Under the pieces are notes generated by a model that did not search any database, was not told the DNA's origin, and was given only the letters and a program-made list of their open reading frames with translations. The translations under genes and the position numbers were made by a program. From Sulfurovum sp. (GTDB lineage Bacteria; Campylobacterota; Campylobacteria; Campylobacterales; Sulfurovaceae): 35,102 bases of DNA. Positions 19,148-34,203 of the stretch are shown piece by piece. Within the stretch, counting starts at the first letter, position 1; each line of letters opens with the position of its first letter. The DNA lies in assembly GCA_015663065.1 (NCBI GenBank), contig DQSX01000032.1, positions 1 through 35,102 on the forward strand. The letters run 5' to 3'.

Positions 19148-20428
19148 TCAGATCATTCCTCCGGCACTTGCTCCCCATGTTGTTCTCCATCGTGTCTTCA
19201 CAAAGCTGAGTCCTGCGATCGCCACAAGTACCACTGCTGCAAAGATAAGAAAACCGATCATGTAGCCGTCAAAAGCACCTTTTGACCAACCTAAGGTTTT
19301 AATCAGCGCTGTACCGCCGAGACCACCTGCAGCCCCGACAATCCCTGTCATAATACCGATATCTTTACCAAAACGCTGCGGTACCAGTTGAAAGACCGAA
19401 CCGTTTGCCATACCCAAACTTGCCATAATGAGAAAAAGTACTGCAATAGCAACAAAAAATGGTAGTTTTGCTATTGCCAGCAGTGTCACAAGTGCAGCAA
19501 CTGCTCCGTAGAAAAAGTAAAGTGCTTTAACGCCACCTATTTTATCGGCGATGCTTCCCCCTACAGGTCTGAGTACAGCTCCCGCAAAGATGGTCAGGGC
19601 ACCAAAGTACCCGGCGATGACTTTTACGTTAGGTTCAGAAAAGACATCCAGCCCAAAAGCTGACATATCTGCCTGGTAAGTATTCATCAAATAGACTTTC
19701 ATATACCCTGCAAATCCTACAAAACCACCAAATGAGATGGCATAAAAAAGATTGAACCACCAAGTATCTTTGTCTTTGAGTAATTTTCCATAATCTTTTA
19801 GTTTTTTAGGTCTTACTTTATAGACAGACTCCGGAGCATTTTTCGCGATGAATGCATAGGCAATAAATACTACGATCGCCATAATGGCACCAACTAAAAA
19901 TACAGACTCCCAACCCCATTTTTCAGCGATCTTAGGCGCAAAAAGGAAATCGATAACCACACCGATATTACCAGCCCCCGCAATACCAAGTACGACTCCC
20001 TGAAGTTTTGGCGGGTACCACTGTCCTGCCTGTGGCAGCGCCACAGCAAAAGAGGCACCGGCAAAACCAAGTCCCAATGCAACAAGAAGTAAAGCATTAT
20101 AGGTAATGCTCTCCCCCATGAAGTATGCGGTTAAAAGTGCTACTATCACCACTGACTGTGCCATCAGTGCTGTTGCTTTTGCACCCAGTTTGTCTACACC
20201 AAAACCAAGCAGTATCCTTAAAAATGCTCCGGACAAGATAGGAAGAGAAAGCAAAGTCGCTTTTTCACCTGCTGTCATGATGTACCCTGTTACTGCCAAG
20301 GCTTCTGCGATCTCAGTAGAGAGTGGACCCAACATCGTCCATACCATAAAACTCATATCGAAATATAAAAATGCCATAAATAAGGTAGGTGCATGTCCCT
20401 GTCCTTTTAATGCTTTAAATCCTGCCAT
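19148..20428 (-). CDS. narK: NarK/NasA-type MFS nitrate/nitrite transporter
   Basis: 426 aa MFS protein with AGAGNIGVVIDFLFAPKIAEKWGWESVFLVGA and MTGIVGAAGGLGG nitrate-signature-like segments; linked to nirA/nasA. Confidence 0.88.
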   Translation of the reverse strand: MAGFKALKGQGHAPTLFMAFLYFDMSFMVWTMLGPLSTEIAEALAVTGYIMTAGEKATLLSLPILSGAFLRILLGFGVDKLGAKATALMAQSVVIVALLTAYFMGESITYNALLLVALGLGFAGASFAVALPQAGQWYPPKLQGVVLGIAGAGNIGVVIDFLFAPKIAEKWGWESVFLVGAIMAIVVFIAYAFIAKNAPESVYKVRPKKLKDYGKLLKDKDTWWFNLFYAISFGGFVGFAGYMKVYLMNTYQADMSAFGLDVFSEPNVKVIAGYFGALTIFAGAVLRPVGGSIADKIGGVKALYFFYGAVAALVTLLAIAKLPFFVAIAVLFLIMASLGMANGSVFQLVPQRFGKDIGIMTGIVGAAGGLGGTALIKTLGWSKGAFDGYMIGFLIFAAVVLVAIAGLSFVKTRWRTTWGASAGGMI

Positions 20429-20495
20429 TGTATCTCCTTAAGATAATTTATTTAAGGAAGTATATAATATTATTAAGCCACACAAAACTTTTTAT

Positions 20496-20512
20496 TGATT
20501 AATTTTTAATCA
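20496..20512. promoter_or_regulatory. Perfect 17-bp palindrome TGATTAA-TTT-TTAATCA (putative operator for narK)
   Basis: 7-3-7 inverted repeat read in sequence; centre 20504 is 40 nt from the first base of a -10-like TATACT on the minus strand (20464-20459). Confidence 0.75.
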
Positions 20513-20574: not shown

Positions 20575-20591
20575 TGATTAAATTTTAATCA
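20575..20591. promoter_or_regulatory. Perfect 17-bp palindrome TGATTAA-ATT-TTAATCA (putative operator for nirA operon)
   Basis: 7-3-7 inverted repeat; centre 20583 is 40 nt from the first base of extended -10 TGC-TATAAT (TATAAT 20623-20628). Confidence 0.8.
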
Positions 20592-20661
20592 TACTGTTTC
20601 TATTTTAACGTCTTCTTCCTGCTATAATAAAAACAACAATATATACGAAAAGAGAAAGTCA

Positions 20662-22581
20662 ATGGAAGCATTACAAAAAGCACGTGAAGCAAGATCTAAA
20701 AAAGTTAATAAAGTAGAAGCAACCAAAGCACTCAAATCCCCTATGGATGTCTATGAAAGACTTGAAGAGATCGCAGCAGCAGGGTATGAAAACTTAAGTA
20801 AAGAAGATTCGGCCTACTTTTTAAAATGTTTTGGACTTTTTGACAAAGGTGAGTACTTCATGCTAAGAGTACGTGTACCTGCCGGACAGCTTAGCAATGA
20901 CGAAGCCATCCGCATCGCAGAAGTAGCTAAAAAGTATGGTGATGACTACATCGATATCTCCACACGTATGCAGATCGTTCTGCGATATATCAAGATAGAG
21001 AACATAGCCACTGTCCTGAAAGAACTCAAGGAAGTGGGTCTAACGACCTTTCAAACCGGTGCAGACAATACAAGAAATACAGTATCTGACCCACTGGATG
21101 GTTTGGCTTACGACAATATCATTGAGACCAAACCTCTCATTGATACACTTGAAAACACTTTTATAGAAAATCCAGAATGGATCTCTACACTTCCCCGAAA
21201 ATTCAACATAGGTATATTGGGTTCTCTTTCAAACTCCTGCAATATCTTTGGACATGACTGCTGTTTTGTACTGGCACAAAAAGAGGGTATTTTTGGTTTT
21301 AACATTTTCCTTGGGGCACGTGTGGGTGTGCAGGCAAAAGATGCCAACCTCTTTGTCACAACAAATGAAATACCTGCCTTTTACACTGCGTTACTGAATG
21401 TCTATAAAACCTACGGGTACAGAGACAACCGAAACAAGAACCGTCTACACTTTTTACTCACAGACGTAGGCATACCCACTTTTGTAGAAGCAGTAAAGAA
21501 AGAGGCAGGATTAGACTTTGCAGATGCCGGAGTAACCATGGTTCAGTCACAGAACATTGCCCTTGGAGCTAACAAAGTCCTGCTGAAAGACGGTACTTTT
21601 GCCTACAAGATCATTGTACCCTCAGGGATCTTTTCAGGGACGGATCTTATCGCATCTGCAAACACAGCAAAAACATTCGGTTCGGGGGACATTAGACTCA
21701 CTTACGACCAGAACCTCTACCTCATCAATGTACCTTCTGAACAACTCTCTGCACTTGAAGAGAGTGCACTGGTAAAGAAATATGCCCAGTATCATAACCT
21801 CTATTTTCAGGATATGATCGCCTGTGCAGGTACCAAAACCTGTTCTTTTGCTGTCATTCCCAATAAATCCGATGCCATTGAGATGGCACACTTCCTCAAC
21901 TCTGAAGTACCTTTGAACAATGCCGTTATTCGTATGAACTGGTCAGCCTGTCCTAAAGGCTGCGGTATCCACGGCATTGCCGACATTGGATTTGAGGGGT
22001 GTAAAGCCAAAGATGCTGAGGGAAAACGTGTGGACGGTGTGCATATTTTTGTGGGTGGCAAGATCACCCGTGAAGCCAAAGAGGCACATACCCTGCACAA
22101 ATCACTTCCTATCACAGAAGCGAAACATCATGTGAAATATCTGCTGAAAACCTACGCTGACAACAAAGAGAGAGCAGAAACCTATGAAGCATTTGATGAC
22201 AGATTTTTAAGCCGAAATTACAGTTTTCAGGCACTGGGTTTTTTCACAAAGATCAACTACATTTTAAATGACAAACTGAATCTCAACATTCCGTTTGAGC
22301 TTGAGAAAGAACCGACGACCTCCAAAAGAGAAGCGTATGAACTTTTTGCCTTTGGACTCAAGCTCTTTAAACTGCTTAGCGGTGAAAAACGTTTTGAATC
22401 TGTAGACGGACTGCTTCCTACCCTTGTAAAACCAAGAAAGATCACACGTGATGAAATTTCCAGGATCAATCCAAAAGTACCTCTAAAATTATCTGAAATC
22501 ATATATAATATGACCCATGAGAACAAAAATGAAAGAGCACAGGTATTTTCAGAATTGCTAGTGGCTTTAAAAGAAGTATAA
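20662..22581 (+). CDS. nirA: Siroheme/4Fe-4S assimilatory (ferredoxin-type) nitrite reductase
   Basis: 639 aa; parallel NirA/CysI repeats, STRMQIVLRYIKIENIATVLKEL, FeS-siroheme Cys motifs CAGTKTC and CPKGC. Confidence 0.88.
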   Translation: MEALQKAREARSKKVNKVEATKALKSPMDVYERLEEIAAAGYENLSKEDSAYFLKCFGLFDKGEYFMLRVRVPAGQLSNDEAIRIAEVAKKYGDDYIDISTRMQIVLRYIKIENIATVLKELKEVGLTTFQTGADNTRNTVSDPLDGLAYDNIIETKPLIDTLENTFIENPEWISTLPRKFNIGILGSLSNSCNIFGHDCCFVLAQKEGIFGFNIFLGARVGVQAKDANLFVTTNEIPAFYTALLNVYKTYGYRDNRNKNRLHFLLTDVGIPTFVEAVKKEAGLDFADAGVTMVQSQNIALGANKVLLKDGTFAYKIIVPSGIFSGTDLIASANTAKTFGSGDIRLTYDQNLYLINVPSEQLSALEESALVKKYAQYHNLYFQDMIACAGTKTCSFAVIPNKSDAIEMAHFLNSEVPLNNAVIRMNWSACPKGCGIHGIADIGFEGCKAKDAEGKRVDGVHIFVGGKITREAKEAHTLHKSLPITEAKHHVKYLLKTYADNKERAETYEAFDDRFLSRNYSFQALGFFTKINYILNDKLNLNIPFELEKEPTTSKREAYELFAFGLKLFKLLSGEKRFESVDGLLPTLVKPRKITRDEISRINPKVPLKLSEIIYNMTHENKNERAQVFSELLVALKEV

Positions 22582-28216: not shown

Positions 28217-28978
28217 TTAATCCAAAAGAATTTTAAGGTCTTCCAAATCAAAAAGAAGCAGTTTTTCATCTTTCAAAGAGAGCAGTTCATTGGAAAACCC
28301 GCTTTTTGAAAAAAGTGCATAGATATCTACGGCTATACCTGACTGAAGGGCTTTCTCTTTAAGCTTATTGAGCTCATTTTTGCATATTTTCCGATCTTTG
28401 TATTTACACTCGCCCAGTATCAGTTTCTTATCTTTTGTAATGGCGAGGATGTCAAACTCACTATGTTGGTTCCAGTAAGACCCAGAGCTTAAAAGTGCTG
28501 TGCTCTTTTCATAATATTTCACAAGAAGATCATTACAAAGCTGTTCGTAGATCAAGGTACGCAGTCGTTCATAATGTTTTTCAAAGTTTTCCAGAAAATC
28601 ATTACCCCTGCCTTCTATCAGCTCTTTTCTATAGTACGTCACAAATCCAAACCAAAAACGCATAAAAGGCTGTACAAAACGCAATTTGTCCTGTACCCTG
28701 TAGGAACGTAGCTCTTTTTTAAGTTTATGTTTGGGATGTATTTTCAGTGGCTGTTCTCGGGTAGGTTCGATATAGAGTATATTTAAAGCGATAAGTTCAT
28801 CGATGATCGCTTCACCGCTACCTTCACTTAACCTTGCTTTTCTTAATACAGAGTAGAACTTTCCATCACCTCTTGCCACCGCCATCAATACATCACGATA
28901 GGGACTTTCAAGCAGGTAAGAGGGAGAAACAAGTGTTTGGAACTTGACAAAATCTTCTACAAAATTACTTTGCACCAT
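28217..28978 (-). CDS. DUF234/ATPase-associated C-terminal domain protein; N-terminus uncertain
   Basis: 253 aa; FMRFWFGFVTYYRKELIEGR...LLSSGSYWNQHSEFDILAITKDKKLILGECKYKDRKI resembles the nuclease-like C-terminal half of DUF234 ATPases. The open frame continues upstream without an ATG. Confidence 0.65.
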   Translation of the reverse strand: MVQSNFVEDFVKFQTLVSPSYLLESPYRDVLMAVARGDGKFYSVLRKARLSEGSGEAIIDELIALNILYIEPTREQPLKIHPKHKLKKELRSYRVQDKLRFVQPFMRFWFGFVTYYRKELIEGRGNDFLENFEKHYERLRTLIYEQLCNDLLVKYYEKSTALLSSGSYWNQHSEFDILAITKDKKLILGECKYKDRKICKNELNKLKEKALQSGIAVDIYALFSKSGFSNELLSLKDEKLLLFDLEDLKILLD

Positions 28979-29223
28979 AGAGAAGACATTGTCAAAAAAG
29001 TCCAGCTCTATATTCTCTTCTATTCCACCTAGAATTGAGAAGTGTTCAACCGACTGTTCCAGTGTTAAATGGGGGTTGTAATGACAAAAGTAGTTAAATG
29101 CATTTTTTATGGGACGTTTACCTCATTTTTTTATTCATAGTGTTCAACTATAAGTTTAACATAGATTTGATATAATACCTTATAGAATAAATGGCTATTT
29201 TTTAATCATTATAAAGTACGACT

Positions 29224-29958
29224 ATGCAACAATTTTTCACCAAATCTGAACAGGTACACAATATCATCAAAGGATTTAACCTTACAAAAACCCTCTTTGT
29301 CTCCTCTATCATTATAGGGGAAGAGCATATTGGGAAAAAGCTTTTTGTAAAACATCTTTTTCCTGATGCTCCTGTAGTATCCGGAGAAGATCAGGGAGCT
29401 GTGGTAGACGCGTTAAGGGAGTATGATGAGCTGATCATCACCGACTTTGAAAAACTGCGTAATCAGGAGTCGCTGGAGCTGGACAATAAGCGCATCATTG
29501 CCACAGCTTCTTATATAGGCAATCAAACGATCATTGATGATATGTTTGCATTTATCTATACCCTGCCCTCGCTCAAAGAACGTCCTGAAGATGTTGAATA
29601 CATTAAAGCACTCTTTATCAAAGAGGCAGCGTCAGACTTGATGCTGACAAATACAAACTTTGACATCACTGCAATCCCTGTCAACCTGACACAAAACACA
29701 AAAAGTCTTAAAAGTACTATATACCGATATCTTATGATACATTCAATGAGTAAAAATGAGATACAGGATGCTGTCTACTCATATGTTTCGGAAAAACTTG
29801 AGGGAAATAACGGATACAAGGAGCATCTTGCACTTTACGAAAAACCACTGATAGAAGCCGGATTGAAAAAATTTGGTTCGCAACTGCAACTTTCCCAAAT
29901 ACTGGGGATCAATAGAAATACCCTTAGGAAGAAGATACATGAACACCACATCGACTGA
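29224..29958 (+). CDS. Truncated NtrC-like protein: degenerate AAA+ remnant plus Fis-type HTH, no receiver domain
   Basis: 244 aa; IIIGEEHIGKKLFVKHLF where NtrC has GESGTGKE; TLPSLKERPEDVEYIKALFIKEAA resembles the LPPLRERxEDIP region; C-terminal LSQILGINRNTLRKKIHEH resembles NtrC/Fis HTH. No GAFTGA. Confidence 0.75.
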   Translation: MQQFFTKSEQVHNIIKGFNLTKTLFVSSIIIGEEHIGKKLFVKHLFPDAPVVSGEDQGAVVDALREYDELIITDFEKLRNQESLELDNKRIIATASYIGNQTIIDDMFAFIYTLPSLKERPEDVEYIKALFIKEAASDLMLTNTNFDITAIPVNLTQNTKSLKSTIYRYLMIHSMSKNEIQDAVYSYVSEKLEGNNGYKEHLALYEKPLIEAGLKKFGSQLQLSQILGINRNTLRKKIHEHHID

Positions 29959-30658
29959 GTCTGAAAACACCATAGATTTTCAGAGTTTTCTGGACTGGGA
30001 CAACAGTCCTTTTATACTCTTTAATGCTGCTGGCAAGATCCTCTATCTTAACAATGCTGCAGAAATTCTTTTTGGTTATGTCTCCAAAAAAGAGCTGTAT
30101 GACCTTGCACTTGCCTATGCCCCTCATGACTTTGGGTACACAACCACCACACTGGCACTCAATTATGATGCCTTTACCTTTTATGCCATCACGGTAGGGT
30201 ATGAGAATGAAGATCAGATCTCTATTCGTTTTTACAATGCGCCACGGATCAAATCCAATGTACCTATTGAAAGAGACAAACTTGTGGAGACAAACATCAA
30301 CCTTCTGCTTGAAGCCAATATTGTTCTTTTTAAAACAAAGAACAGTAACCATCTTCAACTCCTGACCGATCATGATATACCTACATTTAAAATAGACCAG
30401 AACAAATTTTCAAAACTGCTTAGAAAGACACTTGAATCATTCAGGTCATCAGACTCCATCCATATTACACTCAAATTATTGACCGGTGAACATGTGATCA
30501 TTGCAGGAAAGAAAAAAGCCATTGCCCAACTCAGAGTTGAAGCAAACGGCCGATACACTGACGCAGATGAGGAGATCAAAAATATTGCTATGCACTGCCA
30601 CATTACACACATTCTTAAAGAGAAAAGTATCAAACTAGAAATACCACTCATTGATTAA
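29939..30658 (+). CDS. PAS-domain protein, NtrB-like remnant without recognisable His-kinase H-box
   Basis: ORF 29873..30658; likely start ATG 29939 preceded by AGGAAG. FLDWDNSPFILFNAAGKILYLNNAAEILFGYVSKKEL is PAS-like; IPTFKIDQNKFSKLLRKTLESF resembles the N-box entry of HATPase domains. Confidence 0.65.
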   Translation: MNTTSTESENTIDFQSFLDWDNSPFILFNAAGKILYLNNAAEILFGYVSKKELYDLALAYAPHDFGYTTTTLALNYDAFTFYAITVGYENEDQISIRFYNAPRIKSNVPIERDKLVETNINLLLEANIVLFKTKNSNHLQLLTDHDIPTFKIDQNKFSKLLRKTLESFRSSDSIHITLKLLTGEHVIIAGKKKAIAQLRVEANGRYTDADEEIKNIAMHCHITHILKEKSIKLEIPLID

Positions 30659-30668
30659 AAATTAATCA
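30652..30668. promoter_or_regulatory. Perfect 17-bp palindrome TGATTAA-AAA-TTAATCA upstream of amt1
   Basis: Centre 30660; overlaps the stop codon of the PAS gene; 40 nt from first base of extended -10 TGC-TATCAT (30700-30705). Confidence 0.78.
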
Positions 30669-30738
30669 CTCTGCCGATAAAATATACTTCATTAAATGCT
30701 ATCATATCCCTTGAAATAATAAAACAAAGGAATAAAGC

Positions 30739-32046
30739 ATGAAGTTAAAACTTTTCGCTCTACTGGCAACACTCTTGCCAATTGCTGCATTTGCAGAAGA
30801 CAAACTTGATTCGGGTGACACAGCATGGATGATGATGTCCACAGCACTCGTTCTACTAATGACACCGGCAGGACTGGCACTTTTTTATGCAGGTATGACA
30901 CGATCTAAAAATGCCTTAAATACCTATGCAATGGTGATGGGTGCATTTGTACTTGCATTTGTTGTGTGGATCGTTGCAGGATACTCCATAGCATTCGGTA
31001 CTTGTGAAAATGCTACATTACAAAATGTATTTGGAGGACTTGGAAATGTACTTCTTTCAGGTACAAAATGGACTGACCTTTCAGGTTCTTACCCCACATA
31101 TGTGTTTGTTGCATTCCAGGGAACATTTGCTGCTATTACAGTAGCGATTGCATCTGGTTCAGTCATCGGTCGTATGAAGTTCTCTACATGGATGGTGATC
31201 GTTGCCCTATGGGGTCTGGTTGTATATGCTCCTATTACTCACATGGTATGGGGTGGAGACGGTGCACTTCTTTTTGATGCTGGTGCACTTGACTTTGCCG
31301 GTGGTACAGTGGTACACATGAATGGTGGTTTGGCTGGTCTTGTACTTGCCATCCTGGTAGGTAAAAGAACAGGCTACAACAAAGTACCTATGAAACCTTT
31401 CAGTATTATCTTTACAGCAGCAGGTGCTGCACTACTATGGTTCGGTTGGTATGGATTTAACGGCGGTTCTGCATTTGGTGCAAATGCCATTGCCGGTCTT
31501 GCTGTACTTACTACCACTGTTGCTACTGCAGTTGCAGGATTGACCTGGGTACTGATTGAGTGGTTTGTGTTTAAAAAGCCTACACTGCTTGGTATCGCAT
31601 CTGGTATCATTGCCGGTCTTGTGGCTATTACTCCGGCAGCAGGATTTGTTTCTGTTGGCGGTGCATTCATCATTGGTATCTTCGGATCAGTGATCGCATT
31701 CTTCGGTGTTGTGACACTTAAAAAGAAACTTGGTTATGATGATTCACTGGATGCTTTTGGTATTCACTTCCTGGCTGGTCTATGGGGGGCACTTGCAACC
31801 GGTTTCCTTGCACTAAATGACAAAGATCTTCTATGGGATGGTCCACTTAAAGAGTCTGGAGACAGAATGGGACAATTCATGGTGCAAGTTGAATCCGTAG
31901 TCATTGTGGGTCTGTGGACCTTGATCGGTACCGTCGTTGTCTATTATGTGGCGTCTGCATTGACAGGTGGTGCCAGAGTCGACGCCGAAACTGAAGAGAT
32001 GGGCCTAGATGAAGCTGTACACGGTGAAAAAGGCATGAATCTGTAA
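30739..32046 (+). CDS. amt: Ammonium transporter (Amt), with signal peptide
   Basis: 435 aa; MTPAGLALFYAGMTRSKNALNT, DFAGGTVVHMNGGLAGL, WFGWYGFNGGSAFG, AFGIHFLAGLWGALATG. Confidence 0.96.
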   Translation: MKLKLFALLATLLPIAAFAEDKLDSGDTAWMMMSTALVLLMTPAGLALFYAGMTRSKNALNTYAMVMGAFVLAFVVWIVAGYSIAFGTCENATLQNVFGGLGNVLLSGTKWTDLSGSYPTYVFVAFQGTFAAITVAIASGSVIGRMKFSTWMVIVALWGLVVYAPITHMVWGGDGALLFDAGALDFAGGTVVHMNGGLAGLVLAILVGKRTGYNKVPMKPFSIIFTAAGAALLWFGWYGFNGGSAFGANAIAGLAVLTTTVATAVAGLTWVLIEWFVFKKPTLLGIASGIIAGLVAITPAAGFVSVGGAFIIGIFGSVIAFFGVVTLKKKLGYDDSLDAFGIHFLAGLWGALATGFLALNDKDLLWDGPLKESGDRMGQFMVQVESVVIVGLWTLIGTVVVYYVASALTGGARVDAETEEMGLDEAVHGEKGMNL

Positions 32047-32057
32047 GTAGACGTGAT

Positions 32058-32071
32058 CAGGCAAAAGCCTG
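32058..32071 (+). terminator. Small hairpin between amt1 and glnK1 (attenuator-like)
   Basis: CAGGC-AAAA-GCCTG; only a weak T-rich tail. Confidence 0.35.
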
Positions 32072-32113
32072 TTGCGTTTGTGGTGTAAAATTTATAGTAT
32101 ATAGAAACAATAA

Positions 32114-32464
<351 letters not shown>

Positions 32465-32466
32465 AG

Positions 32467-32521
32467 TTTAGGAATCTCGAACTTCTTCGAGATAAACGCG
32501 AAGAACTTCGCGTCTCCTAAA
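32467..32521. repeat. Compound palindromic element B
   Basis: Outer TTTAGGA/TCCTAAA, inner hairpins ATCTCGAA-CTTC-TTCGAGAT and ACGCGAAG-AA-CTTCGCGT; same architecture as 28147-28210. Confidence 0.7.
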
Positions 32522-32531
32522 TATACTCTCC

Positions 32532-32548
32532 TGATTAATAATTAATCA
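32532..32548. promoter_or_regulatory. Perfect 17-bp palindrome TGATTAA-TAA-TTAATCA upstream of amt2
   Basis: Centre 32540; no clear -10 hexamer at the 40-nt spacing (nearest candidate TATTTT at 32589). Confidence 0.72.
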
Positions 32549-32664
32549 CATTTTTCTATCATTTTCCCCAAAAAACCCATTTCTTGCATATTTTTTCAAC
32601 AATACATTTACACTATCTCTCCTGATTACTGATACACTAAGAGTACAAATTTTTAGGAGATCTT

Positions 32665-33840
32665 ATGGAAATAAATTACGTCATCGATACTTTCTTTGCT
32701 ATCTTTGCCATGACCCTCATCATTTTAATGGTGCCGGGCTTTGCCATGCTTGAAGCAGGACTGGTACGAACAAAAAACGTGACATCTGTACTAACAGTCA
32801 ATGTCATGATCTACGCAGTAGCCTCTCTCTCTTTTATGCTTATAGGGTATGAGTACGCATTTGGCAGCTGGGACCATCAGGACGGTATGAGTAAATATGC
32901 TTTCTTTATGTTTCAGATGGCTTTTGTAGGTAAAGTGGTCAACATTATGTCCGGCGGGGTCAGTGAACGTTCACGTATCTTGCCTTTGGCACTCTTTACC
33001 GTAGCCGTAGGTGCTTTCATCTACCCTACCATTGTGAACATTACCTGGGGAGCAAACTTGCTAGACGGCACCTTTTTAGACATTTCAGGTATGGCTGACC
33101 TTGCAGGATCAACAGTCATTCACTCCACAGGTGGCTGGGCCCTGCTTGCTGCTATACTCATCATGGGTGCGAGACGTGGCCGTTTTAAAAAGAACGGCGC
33201 TATTCAGGTCATCCCTGCTTCGAACATCCCTCTTGTGACCCTGGGTGCTTTTTTACTCTGGATAGGCTGGTTCGGATTTAACGGTGGTTCTGTTGGAGCC
33301 ATCTCAAGCAAAGAGAATGCAGATGCTGTGGCACTTACCATTATGAATACCAACACAGCCGGTCTTGCCGGTGCCATTGTCGGGTGGCTCTTAACCTACT
33401 ACCGCTATAAAAAATTCGATATTACGATGATCCTGAACGGTGCCTTGGGTGGTTTGGTTGCAGTTACAGCAGGACCTGACCAGTATGACATCTATACCCC
33501 TATACTCATAGGTGCCATAGGTGGCGCACTGGTTGTTCTCTTTGTACCGATCTTTGACAGACTCAAAATGGATGACCCTGTGGGTGCACTCTCAGTTCAC
33601 CTGGTAAATGGTATCTGGGGGACACTGGCTGTTGGTATTTTTGTATCAGAAGTGAGTATTTTGACACAACTTAAAGGTATTGTTGTGGTGGGTATCATCG
33701 TATTTCCAATAGCCTATGCTACAATATATATGATCAACAAGATATTCAACTTGCGTGCCGGAGATGAAGAGCAGTTAGAAGGAATAGACGTTACAGAGTG
33801 TGGTATAGAAGCCTACCCGGAATTCAAACGTTCATTCTAA
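32665..33840 (+). CDS. amt: Ammonium transporter (Amt), second divergent copy
   Basis: 391 aa; MVPGFAMLEAGLVRTKNVTSVLTVN, DLAGSTVIHSTGGWALLAAI, WIGWFGFNGGSVG, VHLVNGIWGTLAVG. Confidence 0.95.
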   Translation: MEINYVIDTFFAIFAMTLIILMVPGFAMLEAGLVRTKNVTSVLTVNVMIYAVASLSFMLIGYEYAFGSWDHQDGMSKYAFFMFQMAFVGKVVNIMSGGVSERSRILPLALFTVAVGAFIYPTIVNITWGANLLDGTFLDISGMADLAGSTVIHSTGGWALLAAILIMGARRGRFKKNGAIQVIPASNIPLVTLGAFLLWIGWFGFNGGSVGAISSKENADAVALTIMNTNTAGLAGAIVGWLLTYYRYKKFDITMILNGALGGLVAVTAGPDQYDIYTPILIGAIGGALVVLFVPIFDRLKMDDPVGALSVHLVNGIWGTLAVGIFVSEVSILTQLKGIVVVGIIVFPIAYATIYMINKIFNLRAGDEEQLEGIDVTECGIEAYPEFKRSF

Positions 33841-33858
33841 TAAAAAATATAAGGATAA

Positions 33859-34203
<345 letters not shown>

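Follow-up and report, generated by a model that had tools for sequence, protein, structure and literature searches.

Regulators of the NtrC type that have parted with the GAFTGA motif are known from Caulobacter and Rhodobacter capsulatus, where such NtrCs act at sigma70 promoters (PMC10274813), and they provide a precedent for activation without sigma-54. In the NifL-NifA system, in turn, GlnK joins via the GHKL domain of NifL (PMC9866876). In the Campylobacterota, A. butzleri has been reported to have neither NtrB/NtrC nor RpoN (PMC2147049). As far as we found in the open-access subset of the literature, no nitrogen-control regulator has been described for the phylum, and the gene considered here, its operator and a Campylobacterota NtrBC are all without prior description. 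The Campylobacterota abound as primary producers at vents and in sulphidic water, and many of the free-living sulphur- or hydrogen-using forms appear to have kept a cut-down NtrB/NtrC pair that still switches on genes for ammonium, nitrate and glutamine synthesis via an operator that can be recognized in their DNA.

The window, by which we mean the whole stretch of DNA analyzed, comprises 35,102 nucleotides from a draft genome of Sulfurovum sp. (contig DQSX01000032.1; Table 1). An earlier note, made from the sequence alone, had read one of its genes as a receiver-less NtrC derivative without GAFTGA, with an intact Fis-type helix-turn-helix (HTH); we call this protein mini-NtrC. That interpretation is essentially right. 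It can be widened to cover a gene pair with its operator, regulon and type of promoter, and three points are new to it: the NtrB partner, itself degenerate, the strict joint occurrence of both genes and the intact Walker A motif. Judged by sequence profiles and a structure model, the protein is an NtrC relative with a compact NtrC-type AAA+ core and a Fis-type HTH. The HTH matches Pfam HTH_8 (Fis family) above the cut-off (8.9e-7), and Fis structures are the top PDB sequence matches; weak Pfam matches of the glycosyltransferase and HTH_17 types were discarded as under the cut-off. Among the NCBIfam models ntrC (TIGR01818) fits best; it scores 36.2 bits against a cut-off of 558.6 and is matched, likewise far under the full-length cut-off, by all 31 orthologs of a diverse alignment. 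An AlphaFold (AF2) model built from 29 sequences (mean pLDDT 89) has NtrX, ZraR, PspF, FleQ, NtrC1 and VpsR as its Foldseek neighbors (E about 1e-6 to 1e-5 for the first four), RuvB also turning up, as an AAA+ relative of a more general kind; model and search together place the core in the AAA+ fold of the bEBPs, and the unrelated fold that the note had named as refuting its reading did not appear.

Table 1. Features of the locus and of its predicted regulon in the window
Feature	Position	Strand	Remark
mini-NtrC	29224..29958	+	244-codon open frame, 244 aa; compact AAA+ plus Fis-type HTH
P-loop GEEHIGKK, residues 32-39	29317..29340	+	alignment columns
beta-3 / former Walker B LIITDF, residues 70-75	29431..29448	+	catalytic D-E not conserved
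Fis/NtrC-type HTH, residues 203-240, ...LGINRNTLRKKIHEH	29830..29943	+	Pfam, alignment
NtrB-like partner, PAS + CA/GHKL-fold	29939..30658	+	overlaps mini-NtrC stop by 20 nt
degenerate operator, 3 mismatches	29192..29208		24 bp before mini-NtrC start
operator TGATTAAAAATTAATCA	30652..30668		upstream of amt1
operator TGATTAATAATTAATCA	32532..32548		upstream of amt2; -10 not found at usual spacing
operator TGATTAAATTTTAATCA	20575..20591		nirA-like side of divergent promoter
operator TGATTAATTTTTAATCA	20496..20512		narK-like side of divergent promoter
extended -10 TGC-TATCAT, amt1 promoter	30700..30705	+	31 bp after operator
extended -10 TGC-TATAAT, nirA-like operon	20623..20628	+	31 bp after operator
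-10 TATACT, narK-like gene	20459..20464	-	31 bp after operator
ammonium transporter amt1	30739..32046	+	predicted target
PII protein glnK1	32123..32464	+	predicted target and candidate signal input
ammonium transporter amt2	32665..33840	+	predicted target
PII protein glnK2	33862..34203	+	
nitrite/sulfite-reductase family (nirA-like)	20662..22581	+	first gene of predicted target operon
MFS transporter, narK-like	19148..20428	-	predicted target
DUF234 protein	28217..28978	-	divergent from mini-NtrC; 253 aa

Alignment of 97 mini-NtrC orthologs with 30 full-length NtrCs shows which parts have survived. Still present in the family are the P-loop, the core of beta-strands, an LPPLxER stretch, the PGNVREL Asn and a recognition helix, NRNTLRKK, which is that of NtrC. 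On the other hand, GAFTGA is found in none of the 97 orthologs as against 24 of the 30 NtrCs, the whole loop being missing; both arginine-finger positions are deleted in all 97; the Walker B Asp/Glu columns are replaced, mostly by T/K/E and D/N; and the sensor II Arg is lost. No Pfam receiver match is found in mini-NtrC, which starts at the AAA+ core. The one motif that the earlier note had misjudged is Walker A, which it held to be degenerate: G32 and G37 are invariant and K38 is present in 93 of 97, and the stretch is a normal bEBP P-loop but for its last residue, since NtrC itself has GKE rather than GKS/T. The family thus retains Walker A while lacking the other catalytic features of a bEBP AAA+ domain, and it has an NtrC-type HTH with neither the full-length score nor the phospho-Asp receiver of NtrC (NR-I). 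The loss of GAFTGA, arginine fingers and the Walker B D-E together agrees with the note's view that such a protein could not be a normal sigma-54 activator. In two draft genomes (G031, contig C11; G040, contig C86) the frame is broken by stops or frame changes, which could be assembly errors.

The gene that lies between mini-NtrC and amt1, which the note had taken to be adjacent, encodes what profile matches and a structure model identify as an NtrB relative without a phospho-accepting histidine or nucleotide boxes. A profile built from 58 relatives was run against 533 ORFs in the neighborhood of true NtrC genes and picked out NtrB, which lies immediately upstream of NtrC; these matches at far NtrC loci, along with kinase CA folds, point to a PAS plus CA architecture homologous to that of NtrB. 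The model resembles PAS and histidine-kinase CA domains, although only its C-terminal part is confident, the PAS part being of low confidence. The H, N, G1 and G2 boxes are each found in 0 of 58 partner orthologs. The H box is present in all 16 NtrB controls, whereas the strict N-box pattern found 1 control and the G2 pattern 4, so that the loss of N and G2 rests more on the alignment. The DHp helix with the phospho-His domain is missing altogether, not merely mutated.

The two genes share one distribution. Among 100 genomes drawn from the genus and order of the window, mini-NtrC relatives occur in 87, normally once per genome; the NtrB-like gene occurs in the same 87, and both are missing from the same 13. 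A further 28 genomes comprise 14 with both genes and 14 with neither, giving 101 with both, 27 with neither and none with a single gene; the genomes being related, independent losses number fewer than 27, but they are spread over several families. The pairing holds where the genes are unlinked (e.g., G202, G213, G245 and Sulfurimonas-type genomes). Across a phylum-wide sample mini-NtrC is present in 55 of 200 genomes and is missing from most members of several families. A canonical NtrC scoring over its cut-off was found in none of the 100 relatives, and sigma-54 was found neither in the draft genome of the window nor in three closed genomes that carry the pair (G016, G024, G050). Most of the genus has no RpoN; the few members that have it (G001, G004, G029, G051) also encode, about 5-11 kb off on the same contig, a sigma-54 activator with an open frame of 540-575 aa.

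Two features of this distribution count against the explanation proposed below. In Sulfurimonas-type genomes mini-NtrC is flanked by slyD and fabD and stands apart from nitrogen genes, and three pair-negative genomes (G067, G085, G097) have glnK, so that PII is not tied to the pair. In the Sulfurimonas/Sulfurospirillum-type locus, pal-cpoB-slyD-[mini-NtrC]-fabD (L080:6941-7738; similar in L033, L037-L039, L042-L047 and L078-L098), the ortholog overlaps the end of slyD and the NtrB-like gene is elsewhere.

The palindrome TGATTAA-N3-TTAATCA occurs with no mismatch four times in the window and once more in the rest of the draft genome, before a porin-like gene. The earlier note had mini-NtrC directly upstream of an amt/glnK cluster carrying the operators; only the copies at 30652 and 32532 lie in that cluster, and those at 20496 and 20575 belong to the divergent narK/nirA promoter. 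The cluster itself is a tandem amt-glnK-amt-glnK array (30739-34203), whose PII proteins, two in number, share about 86% identity. Across 60 genus members the operator, with at most one mismatch, is found 287 times against 18 for a reversed control pattern (~16-fold), and sites lie upstream of amt, glnK, glnA, narK-, nirA- and nasA-like, NMT1-like binding-protein and porin-like genes and of mini-NtrC itself. At the site before the mini-NtrC start, degenerate in the window, 18 of the 30 closest loci have good copies, which suggests autoregulation. A divergent DUF234 gene adjoins mini-NtrC in most genus members (relatives 252-311 aa), and the operator in the gap between them has a -10-like element towards DUF234, which may therefore be regulated too. 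Operators at the usual spacing also precede porin-like outer-membrane proteins (MKxTKLSLxAALAVS...; L031:13-1146 (-), L216, L209), several of them in tandem in one genome, which have zero Pfam matches at 1e-10. In L208 and L161 a perfect operator precedes the start of a UPF0014 family gene by 79-83 bp; in G003 this gene adjoins an NMT1-like binding-protein gene.

The association can be followed at glnA, with a matrix from the genus sites and significance assessed by shuffling each upstream region. A significant glnA site is present in 24 of 30 pair-positive genomes and in 0 of 8 pair-negative ones outside the genus (Fisher P = 6e-5, the sites of close relatives not being independent), and in 10 of 14 additional pair-positive genomes; in one mixed family it is present in 2 of 3 pair-positive members and 0 of 2 pair-negative ones. 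Against this stand the 6 of 30 pair-positive genomes in which the site is not significant and the weak sites of two pair-negative genus members (G048 and the incomplete G033). The survey of orthologs that the note had proposed as a check thus finds mini-NtrC co-occurring with nitrogen genes and with the operator that precedes them. The inner bases of the operator differ from the classic NtrC consensus, TGCACCA-N3-TGGTGCA, which counts against the explanation proposed below; in distant families the site drifts to TGCTTAA, TGGTTAA or TGCA..., nearer the classic half-site.

The promoters have a fixed geometry. We took 82 non-redundant promoters in which 68-90 bp separate the operator centre from the start codon. 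In 50 of them a hexamer agreeing with TATAAT at 5 or more of its 6 bases stands exactly 30-32 bp past the operator, as against 4-9 in control windows, and 47 have the TG extension of the -10; a -35 element is no better represented than in shuffled sequence. Three of the four operators of the window have a -10 at this spacing, which places the operator centre near -52 of a predicted sigma70-type promoter. The fixed spacing and the many hosts without RpoN led us to reject the operator as part of sigma-54 promoters. The note's suggestion of action at sigma70 promoters is strengthened by the same spacing and by those closed genomes that encode mini-NtrC but no sigma-54.

The computed ancestry, lost parts, strict pairing, operator-regulon association and promoter geometry make it probable, in our judgment, that mini-NtrC and the NtrB-like protein are remnants of an ancestral NtrB-NtrC pair that jointly act as a nitrogen regulator of free-living Campylobacterota, by a route of binding, activation and contact that we infer as follows. 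A Fis-type dimer of mini-NtrC would sit on the 17-bp palindrome, its centre near -52, and recruit the housekeeping sigma70-type RNA polymerase to mostly extended -10 promoters without a -35, activating them with no need of sigma-54 or of ATP hydrolysis; nucleotide may still be bound at the intact P-loop. With both the phospho-Asp domain (REC) and the phospho-His domain (DHp) gone, no phosphorelay is open to the pair, and the signal would pass by direct contact, the simplest route left. By analogy with NifL and NifA, the PAS/CA protein would hold mini-NtrC inactive when nitrogen is in ample supply, probably in a complex with the unmodified form of GlnK (PII); the loss of both phospho-sites, the strict pairing and the glnK linkage are what suggest such contact-based control with PII input. 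The fuller evolutionary statement is evenly poised: that a complete two-component system became a phosphorelay-free, obligately paired regulator, its sigma-54 AAA+ activator turned into an ATPase-dead sigma70 activator under a PII-NtrB-like contact switch, and serves most free-living Campylobacterota as their main regulator of nitrogen.

Alternatively, another regulator, for instance of the CRP/FNR or MarR type, might bind the operator, with mini-NtrC nearby and co-occurring since both mark free-living nitrogen-assimilating lineages. We consider this unlikely: the weak glnA sites that persist in the two pair-negative genus members would fit it, whereas outside the genus glnA is kept but its site is gone wherever the pair is absent. 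The operator, moreover, stands just before mini-NtrC in many genomes and is a 17-bp palindrome whose outer TG...CA has the geometry of an NtrC site, drifting towards TGC...GCA in distant families, and the recognition helix that would read it is NtrC's. A different division of labor, in which mini-NtrC is a repressor or a Fis-like architectural protein and another factor activates, is improbable, even though some operators lie just upstream of its own start codon, where a repressor would be well placed, the NtrC of Caulobacter works both as repressor and as activator, and the HTH is Fis-like. The fixed position near -52, the mostly extended -10 and the absent -35 are as expected of an activator, and the targets are genes that a cell short of nitrogen needs. 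That so many catalytic motifs are gone from both proteins might also suggest a decaying, functionless pseudogene pair. We give this hardly any credence, as the frames are open, the HTH is strongly conserved over about 20 families, usually as one copy per genome, and the pairing is strict even when the genes are unlinked; this conservation and pairing contradict it.

The analysis thus provides a gene pair, an operator, a promoter geometry and a regulon for nitrogen control in Campylobacterota. If the descent from NtrB-NtrC and the joint action proposed above are true, the pair would be a two-component system that has lost the phosphorelay from both members while keeping partnership and regulon, a textbook system rebuilt minus its phosphorylation step, and would be a further instance of NtrC proteins giving up their dependence on sigma-54, as they have done repeatedly. 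Of the systems compared, NtrB-NtrC (GlnL-GlnG) is the one from which both proteins derive by profile matches, and with it they share the HTH recognition helix, a 17-bp palindromic operator and an amt/glnK/glnA/nitrate-assimilation regulon. They differ from it in that mini-NtrC lacks receiver, GAFTGA, arginine fingers and Walker B, the partner lacks phospho-His and nucleotide boxes, and the predicted promoters are of the sigma70 type with the site near -52. The GAFTGA-less NtrCs of R. capsulatus and Caulobacter and VpsR of Vibrio cholerae are likewise of the NtrC type, have shed the sigma-54 loop and function at sigma70 promoters (PMC10274813), yet they keep a receiver with its aspartate and a nearly full AAA+ domain, and the NtrCs also a working kinase partner. 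Fis has a C-terminal HTH homologous to that of mini-NtrC, but no AAA+ core, partner gene or such operator. The proposed working analogue is NifL-NifA with GlnK, in which a PAS/GHKL protein resembling a kinase regulates, through contact, an activator of AAA+-Fis type and receives the PII signal (PMC9866876). However, NifA is a genuine activator of sigma-54 promoters, NifL has retained an H domain as well as, in Azotobacter, a GHKL domain that binds nucleotide, and sequence ties the present pair to NtrB-NtrC.
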